Positions 1 to 26,797 of a stretch of 64,000 bases of DNA are shown here, piece by piece. Each line of letters opens with the position of its first letter. Position 1 is the first letter of the stretch. A program made the position numbers and the translations under genes. Source of the stretch: Temnopleurus reevesii (Eukaryota > Echinodermata > Echinoidea > Temnopleuroida > Temnopleuridae); assembly GCA_036244855.1 (NCBI GenBank), contig BQKZ01004423.1, positions 26,093 to 90,092 of the forward strand, given 5' to 3'. Under the pieces are notes generated by a model. It ran no database searches and was not told where the DNA came from. It worked only from the letters and a program-made list of their open reading frames with translations.

Positions 1-1076
1 TCATCTTCTCTTTATGAGCTTGGCTCTCCAGTATAGCAATAGGTACATGTTACCAGACCTGGGTCGAGTGCAGCAAATTGTGAATGAATTACTTGATAGA
101 GGAAATAAACACCATTTCAACTGTGACCCTCTCTCTGGAAGGCCCAAGTCAGATCCACTATATAACAACGCTTGTATTTCAGCAATATGAGGTTTGCTTG
201 ATAATCCTACGGTCACATACAATAATTGTCAATTCTCTTCCAGATGACAAATGCTTTCATCACAAGCCAATAAGTAAGTCATCACAAGTTTTTCTCTCTC
301 TTTTTTATCATATCATATTTGAGGGTTGCAGAAAAAAAATATTATCCAAGTATGGGTATTTGTATGTAGGCTTACCAACATGATGTTCAGTGTATGCCAC
401 ACTTCTCTGCGTCTCGATAGACCCAAAATCATTCAATGAAAATTCATCTTGTACAATCATTTTCTCAATACAAAATTCATACACATCTATTATCATTAGA
501 GAATATTCAGAACTGAAATTTCTAATGGCACTGTCCTTGACAATCATGATTATAATGATGGATTTGTAAATTAAAAATTTGAGTGAATTTTAAAGGTTGC
601 CATAACAATTCCACCTCCATCTGGCCTACCCATTGAACACAAAAGAAACCAATATTTTAATTTCCCTTTAATAACATGGACACAAAGAACCCTTGTATGA
701 CTAATTTTTACAAACATTCACTTACAAAAATATTAATATATTAAATCACACAGCCCATTGCACACATAAATTTGCTGACTTCTGTCTAACCCATCAAATT
801 TACGAATATTCATGAAAGTTCTGAAAAGAATGAAAGAAAAATTCCACAAATTGAAAGCGGCAGGGCAACAAACATCCATTGTACTGTAAATTCGTGAGGG
901 AAGTTCGAAACATCCCTCGTCTAATGCGACCTCAGACAAAACCAATTTTCAAAGCCTCAAACCACATGTTTTTTACATTTGACAAGGGGTGCGTTGGTTG
1001 TTCACCCCTACTTAGTAGGGGATAGAAGCGCAACCAAGTGGTTTTGCGGTCAGTGCTTCAATCAGACAATTATAGA
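1..1076. repeat. Near-identical copy of 13018-14089 (allelic misjoin or segmental duplication)
   Basis: The first 1076 bases match 13018-14089 with only a handful of differences: a G/A in the TCTCTGGAAGG stretch, A/T near 700, A/T near 790, and a 4-bp GTTG insertion near 1000. Identity is broken exactly at the N at 1078. The match begins at the first base of the window, so it may extend further left. It contains no coding exon. Confidence 0.95.
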
Positions 1077-1078
1077 AN

Positions 1079-1227
1079 GTCTCCTGTGTCTGTAGGTATT
1101 TGATGTATTCTTGATGTACTTTAGCTCGCTGGTTTCTGATTGGATGATTGTCTGTCCCTGGGGCGCCCTCTAGTGCCATGCGGATCTTGTGGGAGGTCGA
1201 GCGGAAGTTGTTGTTCATCTGTTGTAC
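1079..1227 (-). CDS. SKT-family gene exon, truncated at the N at 1078
   Basis: At least 149 nt remain, entering in phase 0 behind the acceptor GATACACAG. It encodes VQQMNNNFRSTSHKIRMALE, a short linker, and RAKVHQEYIKYLQTQE. The last part aligns with RVLVEQERQKYLHEEE of vertebrate SKT. The open frame stops abruptly at the N, beyond which the sequence is a copy of intron DNA from 13-14 kb. No donor site precedes the break, so the exon's 3' end and all later exons are missing from the window. Confidence 0.85.
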
Positions 1228-4200
1228 CTGTGTATCGAAGGGAATATTAAGGGAAAATAAAAATGTAAATTATGACAAATGTAATGATTAAGAAATGAAT
1301 AATCATTCATTGAGAAATCTTTTTCATTATTCATTGTGTTCAGCGTTATGATTGCAGGTTATAAATCAAACATGATCATTTTTGCAGTAATGTTTGCGTA
1401 TTAGAATCAAGAAAGCATTAAGAAAGAATGCTTTGGAACAACAATTTGGAATAACAATTCTTGTTAAAGCTTGTTCAATGAGTAAATCACACACTCAGGT
1501 ACAACTTACTGTATTTCCTGAAAAAAATTTCATCAGAGATGGTGAGAGTATCAATGTAAATGAAATTACAATAAACCCACATTTTAAAATGAATTATTAC
1601 AATCATACTTTCTTCCCTCCCCCATTCAAATAAAAAAGTACACCTAATTTCCAGATATTGATTCACGATTTCTTCAGTAGCAATTACATTGTTTAAAGAA
1701 ATATTACTCTAAAGTATGATGTGACACAGAGAAATCAAATTTTATCCTTACCATATTCAGATGCATTTTCCTGATCTGTTTGAGTTGCATACGGAGGTCT
1801 GTGCTACGATGCTTGAGCACCATGGCGCTACGTTGGACGTTCACACCAGCCGGATGTGGCTGTCCTCCCGGTCTACCAGCCAGGCTAGTCCCCGGGTGCG
1901 AGGAGGGTCGAGGAGACTGGGGCCCAGGGGGTCTCCCTTGCTGCTGCTGGGGGGTTGGGGTTCTGGATATTTGTTGCTGTGGAGTGGGTGTTCTGGGTTG
2001 TTGTGGATGTTGCTGTTGTTGTGGTTGAGGTTGTTGCTGGTGTTGGGGAGTTGGTGTTCGGGCTTGCACTGGGGTAGAGTCTAGGCAGGAAAAAAATAGT
2101 CTAATGAGAACATTTTTTTTTACAACATAAGGAATGAGAGAGAGAGAAAAGAAGAGAGGAGAAGAGAGATACACCTAGAAATACAATCAGACAGCTATAA
2201 ATAAAAAGACAATTGAATACCAAAATTTAAAAGATAGACAAAATTGATACAAAGTCTATCTCTTCCAAAGTTCTCCTTTTCTTGAATATCATCTCCCATT
2301 CAATATATCAAGATATGCATCAATGAATCAATGGACTGCATATAATTTGACAAAAAAACAATTGTGTTTTATATTGCAATATCCAGCAAATCAATAAGCC
2401 CAAAACTTATCCTTACAATCCCATTCAGACAGTCCTTAAATAGATTTGGGATACGATTATATACCTGTTCTCAAAGGTGGGGCTGGTCGATCCCCTGGCG
2501 GTCTTTGAGCAGCATCCTGGAATATAAGCAAATAGTACAATTCAATTCATTAGGTGAAATTGGGTATTCTGCCCTCTTGCATTTAAACATACATTATGGA
2601 ATGCAATATTCTAAATGTGCAGTCGTGATTATAGGAGGAAAAGTAAAGTTGCACAAGACAGAATCAAGCTTCAAAATCTTAAGCGTAATAATTTGGTCAT
2701 TCTTTTGAAGCTCCTATCTTCAAATTATCCCTTAATTTTATTTTTATGTAAAAACAACGTTGACTGTAGAAATTAATAATAGGAAACAAAGATTCAGTAT
2801 CAATTGGATAATAATGTGCAAAATCAATTTTGATGGCAGCAGTGGGATTGGGAGATCCTTTGAGAACTAGCCCATTGACTAGCACACAGAGTAAAATTGG
2901 CATATAATTTGTATAGGGAATATCCTTAATCTGTAGAAAACACATTTAAGTGATGAGGATGGTTAGAATATAATTACATCTTTTTAGAGTATAAAAATTG
3001 TGTCACCTACTAATCATAACAAGGTATGTCTAACAATATTTTCAAATATTATGCATGCCAGTGACTGGCAGAGGTAGAGGGATAGAGAGAAAGAGATGGT
3101 CAATGGCAGCACTAAACAACAACAATATAAAACTTGTAAACAATTACCTGTGGAGAGCGCCCTTGTCTTTGTGGCGTACCATTGTGCGTCCCGATGACTG
3201 AACGAACCATGCCGGCAAGATTGGCTATCTGCTGCTCCATCGCAGAGATCCTTTCGCTATCAAAGAATTTGTTTTAATAACAGTCATTATTTGATATAGC
3301 AGCAAAATATATCAGTCATCATCGATATACATACACCAAAGACTATGGGGTGTTGTTCAAAAGTTGCAATTGATTGCAAATCAACTGCAAATCAGTCGCA
3401 AATTGTATCGTGCATTTTCATTCGCGCATGATATGCACTTCTAACAAAACGCACATAAAACAATGATTTTGATTGGCACGTTCCAATCAACTGCAACTTG
3501 CTATCAATTGCAACGTTTGAACAAAACCCCCCTATGAATGATATTAGGGTATAGACAATTAAAATTATTAAAAAAATTCTGTGAAAATGAAATGGGAAAT
3601 TTAATAATGATCATTTAACACAAATACAGGCGAATGGAAATAAAATGGGGAAAAAATAGGATAAGTGGAAAGAAATATGGGGACCACTTTTAATGGAGAC
3701 ACTTATTATTTTGAAAAATAAAAAATGACAACAAGTGAGAAAATTGACAAAGTTAAACACTGAAGGATCACCAATGAACTTGAAGTCAAATGTTACATTT
3801 TAGAAAAGCCCATTAATGAAATGATACACAAAATGATAGCAAAAAATCTTTACGCAAGTTTGGCAACTCTTATTAATTCAACAGATCACAACACTACATA
3901 AGTTAAAGAGCAGCATTTCAATGATTTTTTACAAAAATTATATAACCATTCATTTCATATACAACTTGTTTCTGATGTATGCTTAAATTGTATTTGTCAC
4001 TTAAACACCAGCATTGCATTTAGCTTTCAAATTTTGTTTTCATGCTAAAAAATAACAAACAAGCCAATTTTTAAAATACCCCAATACTCTTAGTTTGATA
4101 TATTATGCTTACACCCAGAAAATCTCCTTTTTCACGGATTTCAAACAAAAGTGTCATCTTTCTAAATAATGCCCTTAGCCGAGTACACCTGCAATGCCCA

Positions 4201-7200
4201 ATACTTCTGCCATACCATGGGCCTGTAACATAAAGGAGATACGATAAACTGAAAATTAATCGTATCTTTATGGTACACGTTTTGCCATAGACTTACGATT
4301 AATATTTATCGTAAGTTTAATTGCATCTTTTATGTTACAGGCCCCATAATACATTTGGTACCATGACCACAATCCTACTAACCCAACCACATCTTAATAC
4401 TGAGCATTTGCTTTACAACGCGGGCACTCTTTTAAAAAGTTAGATCTCTGGGCGACCAAATGGAAGTTAATATGCTCTGGAATAGAAGTGAAAAAGATAA
4501 TTACTTTATTTGATAATTAAACCTTGTTTGTAGAAGCATTTACAATCATTTTGTCTAGAAAACAACAACCTTTGCAAATGCTTTAATGACCGTTTTGGCC
4601 GTCCATAAATTTAACGTTGTAAATAGCGGTCGCTTTGCAAAATGAAAGCCCAGTAATATCTGTTACAAACCATAATACCCTACAGTGTCATATCCCGACT
4701 ACAGCACAACCCTAATACCCGCTTGCACCCAAGTACCCCTTACACCATTTATACCACTACCCTTCCCTAATACGTTATCGAAACCCCAATACAGCGAAAC
4801 CTCTTTATAACGAGGTCCTTGGGACCATGAAAATGACCTTGTTATATCAGGTTCCTCACAATATGAGGGTAAAAAAACAAAGAACTATGAAGAACTGGGA
4901 CCAATCAAATCACCTTGATATAACAGGTATCTCACTATATCCGACCTCTTTATAACGAGGTTCCACTGTATCTCTATCCTGCCAGATTAATCCTACCTTT
5001 CCCTTAAACACCTACCACAACTTGTTACCTCATCATTGCCAAATTGCCTACCGACCTTAACACATTGACCACTGGAACCGGTTAGGTCCTGCACAAAGTC
5101 TATGAGAATCACAGAATTAAATAGTCAATGGGTCAAGTGGAGACTGGCAGGTGTACAAGGAGCACCTAATATACAGTTCCAACCCCCTAATAACCCCACC
5201 ATGCTTCCACATCAAACACGTATTCCACAGCCTACCTTGTGCCTTCCTCCCCTGGCGGGAGTCTGTTGGGAGTACGAGGGGCAGGCTGGGAGAAAGGTCG
5301 AGCACCAGGGTGGACGCCAGGTCTCGCTCCAACAGCGCCCTCTGTTGATGGAGCGCTTTGAGGTCTAGGGAAGGATTAGTAAACACAAACGCAGAAGCAG
5401 TTGGATTTCGTACAAGCATGCCAAGCATCAATACCAATATTATAACATTTACATAATAAACACTCAAATATATGGGTTAAAAGGTTAGATTTAGAAACCA
5501 TTGTTATGATAACACAATATAAACTATTTCCGTAAAATAAAGTGGGTGATAGATAATAGATCCGTACGCCATGTATTTGACTTTGCAGACACAACAATCA
5601 CAAGTTGGTACCGATTTTAATAGCATTTCAAAGGACTATTGAAACGGCATTTGACTTAATTTTTCGGAAATAGTTTATATTGCGTTTAATATCAAACCTT
5701 TGAACATAAAGAAATTTCAATTTACACATTACAAGCAACATATAATTTCAATTCCCAATCAACTTTGCATTGAAACAGTTGGCATTTTCATTAAAAACCA
5801 TCTCAGTAGTAAATCACATGGACTTTTTACCAAAGTTAGTTTTGATCCATTCTTTCATTCCAACAGAAGCCAGCCTCACAAACCATTCAGGATTCCCTGA
5901 CATAGCAACATATCATGCATGCAAGCACCAAAATCAACACCTGATAGTTTTCATTTCTAATCCAACTTAGTTTATATTCAAGACAGGTCCATAAACTTAA
6001 GATGCCAACCTTAAGGAATATGCATAAGGATAGAAATTAATATCACAAAACAGCTGATCCAAACGTATCTATAAACGTGCTTCATCTTATGAGAAAATAA
6101 TTTGTTCAGCTGTTTGGTGATTCGTATTTCAATCTCTCTCCTTAGTCTGCAGGTAAAGACACTTGAAAAACTAAAGTTTTCCACAATGTACATAGTGCAT
6201 AATCAAGAGTCTGCATTTTTAGACTACTTTACTTCATTCTGATGGCCTTGCAAATAGAAAAAGACAATGCAGCCTGTAATTTCAGACTCTGTATCATGCA
6301 CTGTACAAAATGCAAGACCGAAGTCCAATAGTCTGTACCTAGAAGACCGATCTCTTTTCATGCATATTCACAGATGTTGGCATCTCTGCAATAAAGGAAG
6401 GGCGCAAAAAAAAATAACTTGAATAAATGATACTTGTAGGGAAATAGCACCTTTGATGATCCCTACATAATATACCCTATAATGCCTCGCTCACCTGCCA
6501 TGGCTAATCAAGGTGCCATCATGACTACCGTCTTTTTGAAGAGGGGGCTGCCGAGAACAGTCTTCACTTTAAAAGTGTTAATTTGGGGGTGAGTCCCAAG
6601 TCGAGGGGATCACCTATATGGGGGTGACCCATTAAAAAACCAGTGATAAACCTTGCCTATATGCTCACCTGCCATGGCTAGTAAAGGTGCCATCGTGACT
6701 ACCATGCCGCCTGAGAGGGGGCTGCCCCCGATGCTGTGGTCCCATACCATTGGGGATGGGCTGTCTCATCCCTGGGGCTCCGTTCCTTGGGAGGGTGCCA
6801 TGCTGGGCTCCCTGGGGTCTGCCGGGTGGGGTCTGGTGGTGGTGCTGGGGTGGGGGGCCTCGCTGGCGGGGCTGACCGTTGGGCATGGGAGCTGACATCA
6901 CCTGGTTCTGGATCACCTTTGTTACTGTAAAGTAAAGAGAACGAGTAAAATGATTTAATAACTTTACATTGATCATCATAGAAAAGCATGTGTATAATTT
7001 GTATGAAGTTATCTCTGCGTTATAAGTATCTAAAAGTTTTTATTGGGATTCAAAGCTGGCAAGATTTAATAATGTATTTTAGAAACAAAAGAAATTAGCA
7101 GAATTATAGAACCATAAAAGTAGATTAATATTTCAGAGCGATATATTCAAAAGAATTTCCCACTCTTTTTGCACTCACTTAAAGCTGAGTTAGTTGGTTT

Positions 7201-10200
7201 AATTCACAATATGGTCAAGATCATGCTTTTTAATGTGGTCCTGTTCACTTGATCGCCGAAGGAGTGCAAGGAATCATTAGAACTTTTCAAGGAGGAAAAT
7301 AATTGCTAGCTTTTAAACAAAATCTTACCTGGAGTTGTGCTCCTTGATACCATATCCCCACTGGATGGCCGACTGCCAGGCCTACTACCTCCATCCACCA
7401 CCGATGGTCCACCCCTAGGGTGCTGGCGGGGCATGGTAGCACTCCCTCCTTGGGGCCTAGGGGAGCCCATACCACCCCCTCCACCACCATCATGCTGGGA
7501 GGGTGGGGGCATCCGACGAGGCATGGTGGCGCTCCCATGGGGGTGTTGCCCCTGGTTAGGGTGGGGTTGCCCTCGCCTCCCGTAGGGGCTCTGGGGGTGG
7601 GGTCCACCTTGTCCTTGGGGCCCCCTGGTGACTGGGCCACTCAGGGTAGCCCTCTCTGGAGTCATACGCTGGAAGGCTTGGGTGTGGGCTGCAGGCCGCT
7701 GGAGGGTTGCGCTTGAACGCTCCGGTACTCCGCGGCGGAAATTTTCCTAAAAGAGCACATAAAGAGGTGTGAAATCAATGAAAATTGGCAATATTACAAT
7801 TTATCTATAACATGGGAATCATTAATAATGCCATGATATATTTAATATATTTTTACATTTGGAAATATCTTTATTTGAATTGATTCAGTAATGTAATTAT
7901 ATACTATACTATAGATTGAAATCTAACACACTTAGGGGGTGTTGCTCAAAAGTTGCTATTGATCGCAAGTTGCAGTTGATCGGAACGCGCCAATCAAAAT
8001 CATTGTTTCATGCGCGTGTTGTTAAATGAGCATACCGTGCGCGAATGAAAATGCGCGTTACAATTGGCAAAGTTGCTGTAGTGATTTGCAGTTGATTTTG
8101 AGCAACACCCCATTAGAGTGTGCTGCTAGTAAGTTTCAATTTATTGCCAATCAACTGCAAATCAGTTGCATATTCATTTCCATTCCTAAAATGTTTGCGG
8201 TTCTGACAAGAAGGGCATGAAACAATGATTTTAACTGTTATTTGCAATTGAGGACAACTTTCTTGCAACACCCATTGAAAGTTCTAATTCTATGGTCACA
8301 AATGTGGAGTATTGGTCATACTGTTCTTATAATCATACTGCTTTAATTGCTTGAAACAAATTTATTTGCTTCATCCCCAATATTCAAGGTATTTCTTCTT
8401 TTCTTCATATGACAAATGATAAACTGCACACTTTAATCATTTCAACCAATATCTTCCCTAAAATATATACAAGGGCAAGAAGAAAATTATTACCAGTGAT
8501 TGCGATTGTGGCTTCTTCTCTGGAGAAGGGTTGAGGTTCCCTGCAGCTGGAGCCTGTTTGGCGCCCTCGCCCTCCATCGATTTGAAATGCATATTACGAG
8601 GGACCGTCATGGTATTATATCGATTCTTCCTCACATCCCTCTTCTGGTGGTCGACCTCAGGTTCGGAGTAGTAGTCAAGTTCGACGGGGGTGGAGGTGGT
8701 GCTGCGAGGGGAGGAGGGGCCGGGGGCGTTGGGGTCCTCCACGAACCCAGGCTCGTAGATTTTCAGGACAGTGCGGTCTTGAATTTCGCTATGTAAAGGC
8801 AGATAGATGTCATGATAAGTATCTATAATACTGCAAACATGATAAACAAACTTCAAAAGAAATATACCTTTTCCCACTTCCTTCGCGAGAGCAACGCATT
8901 ATGTACAGACAATTCCTTGCAGTAAGCTTTGTTGATTACAGCATGATCACGTTGCTGATCCAAATCAACAAGCTTTCTGAGTGCTAATCTTATTTTACTC
9001 TTTTTGGATTGTAAATTATTATTCACATTTTACAACATTGTTAATTATATACTTGCAGATATCAAGAGCATCACAAACATCATAACCTTTTTTAGAGATG
9101 ACTTGGCATTGTTAAATATTACCTTTTAAAACATCTGGGAGTATATGATATTTTACTTTTGTAATAAAATTTTCGCTGCATCATTTCACTTACGCTGTAT
9201 CCTCCAATTCATAGAATATCTCTGTAGTTGGATCCTTGATATAGATCTTCCTGACAGGTTGTTCCAGCATCTCCATGTTGAGTTGCTTTGGGAATGCTCG
9301 GACGTACAGCGCCCTCACTGTGTCAATGCCGGTTACCTCGTTAGGCATTAGCCCTCGCTTGGTCTCGTTTTTGTACTGGAGATAGACGAGACCTGCAGAA
9401 AAGAAGAAAAAATGAAATTGTCCAATGCTGGTTAAACTGCACAATTTATAAATTATGTATCTTGAATCTTTTCCTATATACAAAAATCAAACATCATTTG
9501 GGGAATTTGTAGAAAGGAGGATGGGCAGACGAATGGAGAATGGGAATGAAGATAAATAAAAGTAGGGAAAGGAAGGAGAAATGAATGTATTATACACTTA
9601 TATTTCAAGAAAAAGTTTCTTGATGCTGTTCAATATTTCACATAATAAGTTCAAGACTATTTAACTCTGTATAAAAAAAATGAAGAAGAGTTCACAACTC
9701 GATAAGAATCAGCACTTCTCTTTGGTCTAATTGCTCTTATTTTATTTGGAGGAGAGGGCAAAGGCAACAGTAGAAGAGAATTTCTTCTCTACCTTGCGGT
9801 CTTTCTTTGGTCATATTAACCGCTGGCCTAATGACCGACATACTCCACTTTTGACGACCACCTCTTGAGGTGCCAGAAAAGAGAAGGGAAAAGGTACGGC
9901 ACGAAAGGGAAGAAAGAGTAGCAGGCCAAAAAATTGAAAAATTGAAACACATTTCCTGTCTTACCTAGCGGCCTTTCTTTCGTCATATTGACCGCTGGCC
10001 TAATGACCGGCATGCTGGCTCTCAGACGACCAACTCTTGAGGTGCCAGAAAAGAGAAGGGAAAGATACGGCAAGAAAGGGAAGAAAGAGTAGCAGGCCAA
10101 AAACTTGAACCACATTTTTTGTCTTACCCAGCGGTCTTTCCTTGGTCATATTGACTGCTGGCCTAATGACCAGCATCATGGACCTTAGATGACCAACTCT

Positions 10201-13200
10201 ATCAAGAAGCCTATAAGAGGGAAAGAAGGCAATGAAAGTAGAGAGAGAACAAGACCAGCAAGGATAGCACACTTCTCTTTAGTTTTTATCTCAACTCTTA
10301 CCTAGTGGCCTTTCTTTGGTCATGTTGACCGCTGGCCTAATGACCGGCATACTGGCCCTCAAACGACCCCCTCTTGTAAAGCCTGTCGCCTCTGTATTGA
10401 TCTCCGACATGGTGTCCATATTATCCATGTTGTCTAGATCCGTCTCACAGAATACGCCATTGCTGATCGGTGCCTGAAAAATGGGAAAAGGGGGGGAATA
10501 TGTTAAGTTATTGAGATCGACTGACATAATGGTAGGCTGCAATTTTCAGTAAATTTTTCACAATTTGGAAGATGTTTGATACTGATTTTGTCCATCTCTC
10601 TTGTCCTGGCAGTTACATTGTAATATACCAAAATTGAGGTTTGTTTGGAAGATGTTTGTACACAAGTCTGGAGGCATTAATAATCGAGAACTCTAGTTAA
10701 TTCATGTTAATGAAATTAACAAAAAAATTACCACAAAAATTTTAACATATGTATATTTAGTTTATATGAATAATTGTTAACATTGAATAAAGACATAAAC
10801 AGAAATATATGCACATCAAGTTTCTTCCTTGAAATTGTATAGAAATCATAATATTTATCTTATTGTTGTCAATTGGAAATATAACCATGTTTGATGTGTG
10901 GAATAACTACATAAAAACACAGATGATTAAAAAGGAGGAAAAAAGATTTCAACAAAAAAATAAAAAAGGAGGAAAAGGGGTTGATGATTGAAGGAGAATA
11001 AGATGGAGGCTGTGGAGGCTGGGATATTAAGTGAAATTAGGAAATTAAGAAATTGTTCCTGTAGAAGGGAGGTAGAGAGAGAGAGAGAGGGAAAGAATAA
11101 AAGAAAAAATGAGAGAAAGAAATGAGATTTGATGGGAGAGAGTGGGGTGGAGAGGGCGATGAGAATCTGCATTCTCCATGGGGAGCCAAACTCCATTCAG
11201 GCATCATGTATTGTGCTTCTGTTACCATAGCAATGCACCATTACATGAGAGCCATATGGAGATATTGTATACACTACGGGCCTATACAGTGCAGTGAATA
11301 CATGAGTCTACAATTCATTTACATATTGCAATATGCGCAGCGCTGTAAACATATAATGTGTTTTTTATCCAAATAATCCAAATAATTACAAAATGTTGGC
11401 TGTACATGTCAATGACGTTCAAATGAATAAATTCCAAATTCCAAATTCCAATCAGAACAAAATGTTGGCTGTACATGTCAATGACGTTCAAATGAATAAA
11501 TTCCAAATTCCAAATTCCATGCAATTGAAATGCAAGTGTATTTTGCAAATAAAAAAAAAGCTCAATACCTTACACACTTACAGACAGTGATGTTTTAAAA
11601 TCATATATGATCAACTCTATCAATAAAATTTGAACTTCTCCAAGTCGAATAATTGGCTAACAGATCATAAAATCATTAACAAATTTGTATGGTCCAAACA
11701 CATTCAGAGTTACCTGCATTTTCAAAGGAATATGAAGTGGAAGCCTTTATACTGTAAATGTAATACAAAATATAAATGGAAGTACACACTTCTTGATTTT
11801 CAATGCCATCAAACAGGATATTCATAAGAACAAACAAAATAAAAAGCTTAAAATATTATCATTCCAGACTAAGATAACACAGCGGAGATATGACTTACAA
11901 TATACAATGCACTATATCTACACATCTCTGCCCAAGCGAGCTGTGTTTAAAAGCATTGAATCCGATATTGATTTTTTCATTCATAGTAATCTTTTCATGG
12001 TCAGATAACACATAGGGTATTTAATAGAGTATGAAGGAATATTTAATCAGTCTTCAAGCCCAGACCCCATAATTTTCATTACAATAACAAAGTCTGTATA
12101 ATCTAAAATGCATATTAGATTATACACCCCCATGCATAAGGTCTTTTCTAACACAGACGATTTTGCTACAGCTAGCTTTACTCCATACTTACTAATTTTC
12201 TAATTTTTCTAATACTAATTTTCATTACAATAACAAAGTCTGTATAATCTAAAATGCATATTAGATTATACACGGCCATGCATAAGGTCTTTTCTAACAC
12301 AGACGATTTTGCTACAGCTAGCTTTACTCCATACTTAAAGAATTAATGGATTGAAAAGTCAAAACTAGGGTCTGTGATCAAAGACTACATTAAAATGTGT
12401 GGGAGTGAATCGGAGGTGAATGACACATTTCAAACACCTTTAGATGTTTTGGAGATCACGTATTTGCCAGACCGCAAATTTCAAAAGAAAAGGGCATGAC
12501 TTCTTGGCAATTCTACTCCATTTTGAAAGTAAATATGCAAGGTATTTTGTAATAAAGCAAATTTAAAATGTATTCCATCAATAATAGACTCTGAAATTCA
12601 ATATGTATTCTACCTTCCTGTTATATGTATAATGATTAAGAGCTTTAACAAAAACATTATTTACATGTCAGGGTGCTACAAGAATGTTTGGCACCACTTG
12701 CCAGACAGCACAAGTCGCTTCTCAAATTAATGACCCCAACACAATTTCTATATGTCTTTTTGGGCAAGTGACAATCTTATTTACTTGCCAAATGGCTCAA
12801 TTTTTTTGCCCTGGGCATTCGGGCAAGTGGGTTTCTTGCGCCCTGCATGTTTCTGATGAAGCCAGTGCGGTAAGCTGTGATTAAATGTGTATGCCTATGT
12901 GATCTAAAATTTTAAAAATGTCCAGTTTATATTTCAATATGAAATACAACAAATATTCACAACACAATTCCAATGAATCTAGATTAATACAACTGAAAGC
13001 TTGTCATCAAACATGTATCATCTTCTCTTTATGAGCTTGGCTCTCCAGTATAGCAATAGGTACATGTTACCAGACCTGGGTCGAGTGCAGCAAATTGTGA
13101 ATGAATTACTTGATAGAGGAAATAAACACCATTTCAACTGTGACCCTCTCTCTGAAAGGCCCAAGTCAGATCCACTATATAACAACGCTTGTATTTCAGC

Positions 13201-16200
13201 AATATGAGGTTTGCTTGATAATCCTACGGTCACATACAATAATTGTCAATTCTCTTCCAGATGACAAATGCTTTCATCACAAGCCAATAAGTAAGTCATC
13301 ACAAGTTTTTCTCTCTCTTTTTTATCATATCATATTTGAGGGTTGCAGAAAAAAAATATTATCCAAGTATGGGTATTTGTATGTAGGCTTACCAACATGA
13401 TGTTCAGTGTATGCCACACTTCTCTGCGTCTCGATAGACCCAAAATCATTCAATGAAAATTCATCTTGTACAATCATTTTCTCAATACAAAATTCATACA
13501 CATCTATTATCATTAGAGAATATTCAGAACTGAAATTTCTAATGGCACTGTCCTTGACAATCATGATTATAATGATGGATTTGTAAATTAAAAATTTGAG
13601 TGAATTTTAAAGGTTGCCATAACAATTCCACCTCCATCTGGCCTACCCATTGAACACAAAAGAAACCAATATTTTAATTTCCCTTTAATAACATGGACAC
13701 AAAGAACCCTTGTATGACTTATTTTTACAAACATTCACTTACAAAAATATTAATATATTAAATCACACAGCCCATTGCACACATAAATTTGCTGACTTCT
13801 GTCTAACCCTTCAAATTTACGAATATTCATGAAAGTTCTGAAAAGAATGAAAGAAAAATTCCACAAATTGAAAGCGGCAGGGCAACAAACATCCATTGTA
13901 CTGTAAATTCGTGAGGGAAGTTCGAAACATCCCTCGTCTAATGCGACCTCAGACAAAACCAATTTTCAAAGCCTCAAACCACATGTTTTTTACATTTGAC
14001 AAGGGGTGCGTTGTTCACCCCTACTTAGTAGGGGATAGAAGCGCAACCAAGTGGTTTTGCGGTCAGTGCTTCAATCAGACAATTATAGATCCTCAATCTT
14101 TGTGATACTGGTATCCCTTTGACTAGATATGTATATGTATCAATCATAGATTGCATAAGTATGAAGGCCTAACTATTGCTATGTATTATTACATTACATG
14201 CCAAAATGAGAATATAAATAATAAATGTTTTTTAAGATAGCTCTTATCACCTCTTCATAAAGTGCTTTACAATTGCTGCTGCTTAATTGCCTTAGCTTTA
14301 TATGGGTAACCAGTTGTTTGAAGACAAACATGTAGCTCATCCTCCAAAACTGTACAACTGCCACTGCCTATAGGCATAAATATCTTGGTAACAATCAAAT
14401 ACTGTATTTATAAGCAAAAATTTCCACATGCATATATTTTCGAATTATGGGACCATTTTTACATTGAAGTGAGTTGTTATTTTTTTTTCATTGTTTGTAT
14501 ACAAATGAATGTGCATCATACTGAGCGGGAATTTCTGAGAAGCTTGGACCATATAATTCTTAAAAGTAAAACTCATACAGTATATAGATAACGATCTTGA
14601 TAACAATCATTATCAAATATGATTCACTATTAAATCATGCTGTTTGTTCCTTTTCACTTGACTATTTATCACATGACTTAATGTTCTTCGACAAGGCTCA
14701 TATCAGGGGAGGGACGATTTCAACATGTCAGCGCAGAGGGATTCATCATCATGGGAAAATATTTCCTTCAAATGTCTGATTTCATTTTTTTCTTTGCTAC
14801 TTCATCTGGATTCATTCAGCTAGGTATTGCAAGATGTCATATATTCAAGACTGCGGTTATCTCTCTGATATACAAGGCACCTTTCGCAAGTAGCTATATG
14901 ACAAGATTATTCAGTCAAATATACTGACAAAAAAAGGGTTTAACTTCACAATAACTTTCTTCGTGGATTGTGCAATGCAAAAAAAAGTATCAGAATAATA
15001 CATGTACCAGTGACTAACAAGATGTATTGTGATAAAACACTGTAATACAGTAGATTCATATTGTTCTGTGTAACATCAAAATGCACTTACAAAAGCAACA
15101 TTAGAATCTGTCTACTTCAGCAAAGGTGTTGTTCTGCCCTTTTTCTTGTCTTGAACATTATGAAATGCAGAGTTGGTGTTTTATCATCACAACCATTTTT
15201 GCAGTAAAAAGGAGCTCTATAGACTAGGTAATTCAAGTTCAATGGAGTGCAAATGAGCTTGTCATCAGGAGGCACTTGTGTAAAAGACCCAATGTTCTTT
15301 GTTTTCACCTGAATTGAGAATCAATCATCCCCTTGTCATTCAGAAAATTGAGCTCACATTAAAAGTGTAATTCAAAATTGAGAAATGATTGTTTATGGCT
15401 AAAACACTTGAATTGTGTTTGTGTGTGTGGTTAGATTGTTATGGGATCTTCATGTTATTTGATATTGAAAGACTTGCATTCAAAATATTAGTCTCATGTC
15501 AGATTAAAATTTGTTATTCAATTTACCTACATTGGAAGAACTTCATCATCAGATTTCAACAAGACAAAAATTTGGGGATATCCAGCAATTTCAATGTAAA
15601 TCATATCTATAAATGAGACGAAACTCTTCAAAATATTCATTGGCGGAAATGTGCTTAATACTCATAAGCATTTCAAAATGACTGTAAGTCATCAAAATTC
15701 CTCTAAATTCCATTAAAGTGCACACACGCACTCCAATTCAGCCCCAACAGATAAAATCAATTTTCAGATCAAAATTCACTTGTAAAGCAGATGATATTTT
15801 CGGAAATAATATTCATCCCAATTGTGCTCTTATACCATTACAGCAATAGCCCCAGGCAACGACTCTATTTTCATTAAGCAGAGAGAATTGATGCGCTCGT
15901 CCCACGACATGAACTTCAATGAGAACAAATTGCGTGTATCGTGTGGCTCATCTTTCATAAAAGATCCCTAAAAGGACAAGGAATCTGGTAATCTTTGCGG
16001 AATTTCCTCAATTCATGATGCAAAACCTCATATTTGGGCTGTTCAGTCATACCTAAGGCTTCCCATTCGCGTCTCAGCCAATTATTATTATTTTTTTTAA
16101 AGTAGTAAAAAATGATATAAACTATTTCAATAAAATAAACTGGCTTAAGGGTTAATACATGTAGATCTGTAAGTCGGTTCCAATATGATTAGCATTTAAT

Positions 16201-25772: not shown

Positions 25773-26797
25773 CTCCACCATTTATTATTCAGCTGACTCC
25801 AGCTCACAATATGATTACAAAAAATATTCCAACACAGAGTATCATCCAATTTATGACAGATATCTGCAAGTCTTCTCTGTGCGAGAGAACAATGCACTTT
25901 TCTGCTTATTACAATGGGTGGATTGCTCAATATTAAAAGCAAATTCCTCTTAATTAATGCACTGTAGACAAGGAAGGTATTAAAACAAGATGCAAAACGA
26001 TTGCTATTGATATTGACAATGCAGTAGAATGCAATGGTCCTTTGAATGCAACAATGGCAACATGTAATAAATAATACTTCTTCCTACAGTAGTAACGACA
26101 GATGAACGGTAATAAACAAAATTGCTATCACAATAGCAGTTTTGGTAACCGCAATTACCATAGCAACACATCTAGACTGCTTAATGCCGATTCCTGTCAA
26201 TGGAATACGTACATGTATACACAGTTAATAGTAATATATTATACCATAGAGTATCTCTATGATTATACCAAGGATCCCTTGATTCACTGAATAGTGAAAA
26301 TTGCCATTTCAAGATGGGATTACAAGCCATGTAAACCTATATCTGATATAATAGTCAGTATACTTCCATTATTAATACACAGAAATGTGTGAATTAAAAT
26401 CATTGCATTGGCATAAATGATAATCCACGGATGTTTAGAGACATATGTAGGCCAATTGTACATACAAAGTTTGGATGGGTAAAAATATTTCATGGTTTGA
26501 TTTCGGGTATAGAACATCGTCTTTTTAACATGAAAAGAGGATATGAAAAAGAAAGAGATGGATAAAGACTGACAGAAAAGAGAAATAAACAGTATCTGTG
26601 CAGGTGGGATTAAGAAATAAAGATAGGTACATGTAGAGAGAAAATTTTATGAGACATTCAAAACAGTGCAAATGAGATTTATAGAAAAATATCATATTGA
26701 GATGGAGAGGAGGAAAATAAAAAAGTATGTGGTAGGAGAGAAGACAGAATGGTATGACACGAGTAGGCTTAAAAATTTGTTGTGAAAAAGAGATCTG

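Follow-up and report, generated by a model that had tools for sequence, protein, structure and literature searches.

In a 64,000-nt stretch of the genome of the sea urchin Temnopleurus reevesii (the window; positions 26,093 to 90,092 of contig BQKZ01004423.1, here C4319, in assembly GCA_036244855.1), a gene identified as an SRCIN1/SKT ortholog by its AIP3 domain and its collinearity with a Lytechinus pictus protein carries a tandem array built from the 3′ end of one of its coding exons, here called exon 1. The array is tentatively interpreted as a recombining exon-end repeat whose extra copies would mostly be skipped, and this is preferred to the possibility, judged less probable, that the copies are optional protein cassettes. 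The repeat unit of 163–174 bp, apparently lineage-specific, would pair ~95–105 bp of intron with the preceding 3′ end of a constitutive coding exon, and the end of exon 1 and the array would have exchanged sequence. Normal mRNA would join exon 1 to the next constitutive exon, which begins the AIP3 domain (the AIP3 exon), as in urchin homologs, and the extra copies, with weak or frame-breaking acceptors, would usually be left out. Through unequal exchange with alleles of exon 1, the copies would be resupplied with a functional core, which would stay synonymous-only as the preceding segment drifts; such exchange would also help to make a block where the divergence of two probable haplotypes is many times that of the surrounding sequence. 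This interpretation is favored because the array is found at one gene only and in two different versions, an intron following one version of exon 1 resembles those of the array, acceptor scores are low, the eight codons before the core evolve as if neutral, and none of the homologs has a second copy.

The four 69-nt copies reported in a preliminary description of the window are all present on the minus strand (B1 to B4, Table 1), and any two agree at 54–61 of 69 bases. All four have a GT directly after them, an open core frame, and phase 1 at both ends. They start 172, 163, and 174 nt apart, giving introns of 103, 94, and 105 nt, in line with the original estimate of about 94–105 nt; the other introns of the gene are roughly 0.3–6 kb, judging by match ends in the protein alignment. 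The core was also described correctly, with only synonymous changes in 13 residues; residue 14 is either L or Q. B1 is the last 69 nt of exon 1, which appears to be in phase 0 at its 5′ end and is in phase 1 at its 3′ end, so that a cassette could be added, yet one replacing exon 1 would shift the frame. In-frame mutual replacement, as expected of mutually exclusive exons, is possible among the extra copies and fails for exon 1. What is found is a set of adjacent, homologous, exon-length segments, as in tandem exon duplications, in which the repeated portion is limited to the 3′ part of exon 1.

Similarity to exon 1 begins about 12 nt farther upstream than the 69 nt. The extended segments read SGTSRVGR in B3, SGTSRGGR in B4 and in copy A3 of a second array described below, and GFSRGG in its copy A4, compared with GFTRGGR in exon 1. 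Since the resemblance starts there, the AG that had been taken for an acceptor at the same position in every copy (codons ACA AGA GGT) is inherited coding sequence, and so is not independent evidence for a splice site. The AG is present as described, but within a GAG, and a further AG lies 2 nt before it.

A degenerate pattern for the core had seven matches in the assembly (558 Mb, 10433 contigs), four in the window and three just outside it, all on C4319 at this gene, and a reversed control pattern had none, so the array is not a chance resemblance. A DNA search of the assembly found no second locus for the array among the best candidates, which were the only ones scored (four matches, all on C4319). 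A family search for mitochondrial COX1 had no match in the assembly.

The family assignment in the preliminary description is supported by several comparisons. The AIP3 exon and the one following it match Pfam AIP3 (PF03915) at 47.2 bits against a cut-off of 31.6 (E = 2.4e-12). The main matches to an SRCIN1-like protein of L. pictus (P0011, 1817 aa) lie in order on the minus strand over its residues 1–1532, with a few weak low-complexity matches out of order, and the best matches and identities are to sea urchins. Two protein searches gave 17 distinct homologs, from sea urchins (Strongylocentrotus, Lytechinus, Diadema), starfish, a brittle star, a crinoid, hemichordates, a bird, and a mite. 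The motif RPAVNMTKERPLG, allowing up to six substitutions, occurs once in 14 of these and twice in none; the crinoid protein, a partial hemichordate protein, and the mite protein have no recognizable copy. With no two-copy protein among them, the array looks lineage-specific, as had been suggested, as far as can be told from a set of cluster representatives and predicted isoforms that includes none close enough to this gene to come from this species and may hide other isoforms. A third search, among shorter proteins, for homologs with a repeated motif gave no hit (none of 2776 candidates scored), and a sequence search at E 0.01 found no solved structure of a relative.

About 12 kb of the contig, including the array, is present twice: C4319:15122-27168 (unit A) matches C4319:27171-40181 (unit B), with a single N between them. 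This N cuts an exon in unit B that is intact in unit A, and each unit contains every exon matched inside the overlap a single time, arranged as in one L. pictus protein. For these reasons the contig is probably misjoined, the simplest reading being an unmerged overlap of two haplotype contigs, with units A and B as the haplotypes. A comparison of the whole contig found no second long near-identical pair, and none of the three other single Ns has same-strand similarity of more than 15 bases between its flanking 400 bases; a lone N is therefore not in itself a mark of such a join. The first part of the window (1–1076) belongs to the other unit and repeats the sequence at about 13018–14089, a false duplication, and gene models spanning position 1078 will be broken.

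Units A and B, taken as haplotypes from the join and the exon order, differ in the content and sequence of their repeats. The array of unit B consists of exon 1 (B1), B2, B3, and B4, and that of unit A of exon 1 (A1), A2, A3, and A4. A3 is an intact 69-nt copy, A2 carries one additional base and keeps the frame only if read from an AG 2 nt upstream, and A4 (C4319:23402-23458) is truncated after VIRPAV, with no donor at the matching place. The GFSRGG of A4 is also the reading in other urchin proteins, and exon 1 of this gene has GFTRGG in both units, so A4 may keep an older state. The intron after A1 shares 90% of 93 aligned bases with that of B2 and 97% of 78 with that of B3; the intron after B1 has only short matches to these two (23 and 7 bases). 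Unit A thus has an array-type intron directly after the end of exon 1, for which exchange or replacement between the exon 1 end and the array would be the simplest cause.

The arrays lie in a sharply bounded block of high divergence. Outside it, 88 of 10991 aligned positions are different between the units (0.80%, ignoring gaps); inside it, the count is 271 of 1026, a figure that depends on the alignment since the arrays differ in content. Past its edge toward exon 1, the units do not differ again for 0.8 kb; at the opposite edge a single difference follows after 82 nt, and 0.9 kb then pass without another. In exon 1, 11 positions differ between units, all of them silent and within the last 77 nt. 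The AIP3 exon has 12, also all silent (dS 0.33 over the whole exon), and its 67 encoded residues are identical. These counts, 23 silent and no replacement changes in two constitutive exons, are independent of how the block is aligned. The intron after the array (window 9393–9792) barely aligns between units, while introns 1 kb away are nearly identical. The AIP3 exon protein has two matches in the assembly, this one and that of unit A. Searches of the assembly by core pattern, AIP3 exon protein, and array DNA found no paralog that could have donated the block among the best candidates scored, though an unassembled or diverged one may exist.

Table 1. Features of the array, its gene, and the duplicated units. 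Positions are those of the window unless preceded by C4319 (contig coordinates).
Feature	Position	Strand	Remarks
Exon 1 (constitutive)	10302..10473	-	172 nt; encodes APISNG...ATGFTRGGRLRASMPVIRPAVNMTKERPL; matches L. pictus P0011 residues 119-177
Copy B1	10302..10370	-	Last 69 nt of exon 1
Extra copy B2	10128..10196	-	VGHLRSMMLVIRPAVNMTKERPL
Extra copy B3	9965..10033	-	VGRLRASMPVIRPAVNMTKERPL
Upstream extension of B3	10034..10045	-	12 nt, SGTSR-like, resembles exon 1 GFTR; tblastn match of SGTSRVGRLRASMP... to P0011 residues 149-177
Extra copy B4	9793..9861	-	GGRQKWSMSVIRPAVNMTKERPQ; donor GTAGAG vs. GTAAGA of others; last residue L -> Q
Upstream extension of B4	9862..9873	-	12 nt, same extension as at B3 (tblastn)
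AIP3 exon (next constitutive exon, AIP3 domain start)	9194..9392	-	GLVYLQYKNETKRGLMPNEV...; PF03915
Highly divergent block between units	9232..10378 (unit B); C4319:22924-23944 (unit A)		Sharply bounded, 1.0-1.1 kb, over the array
Unit B	1079..14089		Near-identical partner is unit A, C4319:15122-27168, across a single N
Single N at probable misjoin	1078..1078		C4319 27170; cuts exon ...EYIKYLQTQE

The extra copies were compared by their private variants, that is, base variants found in neither exon 1 allele. A2 was left out of the count for the eight codons before the core because of its extra base, and A4 was counted in the core only up to its truncation. In the 14-codon core there are seven silent private variants and one replacement (P about 6e-4 under neutrality, ranging from 3e-4 to 1e-3 with the transition bias), and in the preceding eight codons three silent and 12 replacement, as neutrality predicts. 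The two segments differ by Fisher's test at P 0.006, or 0.003–0.043 when A4, B2, B4, or A2 is left out in turn (B3 and A3 always kept). By these counts, the core is conserved at the amino-acid level and the preceding eight codons are not, in support of the original proposal of selection on protein. The core pattern fits constraint on a protein, and also import from unsampled exon 1 alleles. Divergence in the array introns points to the latter: among B2, B3, A2, and A3 (B4 was not included, its intron not being of the array type), silent core divergence exceeds that of the following intron in five of six pairs, for example pS 0.48 against 5% for B2-B3 and 0.39 against 8% for A2-A3. On this basis import of old exon 1 sequence is favored; it would explain the silent excess, which constraint in place does not.

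Splice sites were assessed with a position matrix built from 17 acceptors of the gene, as placed by alignment to the L. pictus protein. All 17 are CAG or TAG, with no other AG in the last 19 nt before the exon, and score 7.1–16.9 bits. The in-frame acceptors of the extra copies score −4.4 (B2), 5.3 (B3), 6.4 (B4), 3.0 (A2), 6.4 (A3), and 6.2 (A4), all under the weakest of the 17. In B3, B4, and A3 the AAG 2 nt upstream scores 3.8, less than the in-frame GAG, so the matrix does not favor the out-of-frame site; in A2 the out-of-frame GAG (5.2) scores more than the in-frame AAG. A strong acceptor (TATAG, 13.7 bits) lies out of frame 14 nt upstream of B2; splicing there would run into a stop codon. 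A donor is present in B2–B4, A2, and A3 and not in A4, with GTAAGA in B2, B3, A2, and A3. Published work reports a strong preference, with exceptions, for the AG that comes first downstream of the branch point (PMC7317903) and a preference of about 1 bit for the upstream site of human NAGNAG acceptors (PMC3250501). Mixed and weak use of the copies' acceptors seems a fair forecast.

The preliminary description held that the four copies could be freely included, skipped, or swapped. The weak in-frame acceptors, the strong out-of-frame acceptor of B2, and the fact that exon 1 itself is not swappable all go against this, as does unit A, where A2 carries an additional base and A4 is cut short. A more limited version, with in-frame inclusion of some copies between exon 1 and the AIP3 exon at a low level or in particular tissues, each copy adding 23–24 residues for one to four copies of the motif, is a possibility of some weight but not the favored one, and the same applies to the proposed diversification of isoforms. 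The silent-to-replacement ratio of the core and its difference from the preceding codons speak for such cassettes, as do matching phases, GTAAGA donors, long pyrimidine tracts, the higher score of the in-frame GAG in B3, B4, and A3, and the in-frame AAG of A2, which compensates for its extra base. However, every in-frame acceptor of the extra copies scores below all 17 used for the matrix, the best site of B2 is out of frame and ends in a stop, the codons preceding the core are free to drift, and no homolog in the set examined has two copies. That the copies are instead poison exons, whose inclusion would shift the frame and destroy the mRNA as a control on expression, is improbable. The first AG after the pyrimidine tract does lead to a stop in B2, B3, B4, and A3, and the out-of-frame acceptor of B2 is strong, but the first AG of A2 is in frame, the synonymous-only core is left unexplained, and nothing points to a conserved control element, homologous proteins giving no view of skipped exons. 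It is more improbable still that the 12-kb units are a real tandem duplication inside the gene; both do lie on one contig, but their junction is a lone N interrupting a coding exon that is whole in the other unit, and neither unit repeats any exon matched in the overlap, the order being that of one L. pictus protein.

Several points also weigh against a recombining, mostly skipped repeat. Protein constraint in place predicts the seven-to-one ratio of the core as well, and the B3-A3 pair has no silent core excess (0.10 against 10%). The core comparisons rest on small counts, from one to eight silent differences over about 10 silent sites. The B2 core is six and seven silent changes from the two known exon 1 alleles, so donor alleles would have to be unsampled, and exchange between A1 and the array could have run in either direction. 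The acceptor matrix is small, and its 17 sites were scored on their own training set; the long pyrimidine tracts, and the GTAAGA donors of B2, B3, A2, and A3, also count against skipping.

As for the block, old balanced alleles, conversion by a paralog, and repeat-driven exchange are all candidate causes. A specific form of the first, a narrow and very old balanced polymorphism (or the relic of a lost paralog) whose allele classes each have their own number and type of motif cassettes before the AIP3 domain, giving allele-specific repeat isoforms in individuals, is unlikely. In that case a conserved cytoskeletal adaptor would have two allele classes with identical constitutive protein and silent divergence many times that of the flanks.

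Tandem duplication of exons that are used alternatively or in a mutually exclusive way, as described in PMC9013439 and PMC9741552, shares with this array the homologous exon-like segments in tandem and phase-compatible extra copies. Here, in contrast, only the 3′ part of the exon is repeated, the original is not exchangeable because of its 5′ phase, acceptors are weak, copies differ between haplotype-like units, and the array is known from genomic sequence alone. The gene shares with the SRCIN1 (p140Cap)/KIAA1217 (SKT)/CG32809 family the AIP3 domain (Pfam AIP3), collinear exons, and a conserved motif just before the domain, but this motif is repeated here and in none of the 17 homologs found. 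Polymorphic minisatellites, or variable number tandem repeats, can overlap coding sequence and vary in copy number and sequence between haplotypes by unequal exchange. The array resembles these in its variation between haplotype-like units and in the unequal exchange proposed for it; it differs in that the unit is an exon end plus an intron, donors are mostly preserved, and the divergence reaches the next constitutive exon, with silent changes only. The short, highly divergent block in a low-divergence background also recalls narrow footprints of ancient balancing selection, as in PMC11138114, but here there are two haplotype-like units, whose amino acids agree throughout both constitutive exons of the block.

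As a rule, exon arrays are observed in an already settled state. The present array is not the same in the two haplotype-like units and appears to trade sequence with a constitutive exon, and may therefore show how the repeated end of an exon originates, degenerates, or comes into use. More surprising than the question of isoforms is that such a variable array lies inside a sharply bounded divergent block, and a stretch with only silent coding changes in a 0.8% background needs an explanation of its own. A literature search on alternative splicing of SRCIN1/KIAA1217 returned cancer biomarker work only, and one on exon duplication and haplotypes in sea urchins returned other subjects only; no absence from print is claimed for such an array.

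Apart from the array, the units differ by a repeat of ~185 bp (window 7931–8117) that is in unit B and missing at the matching place in unit A. It is 91–92% identical to C4319 54204–54388, 79024–79204, and 89431–89610. At the empty site in unit A, about 15 bp are common to both flanking matches, and the copy in unit B is probably a recent insertion.

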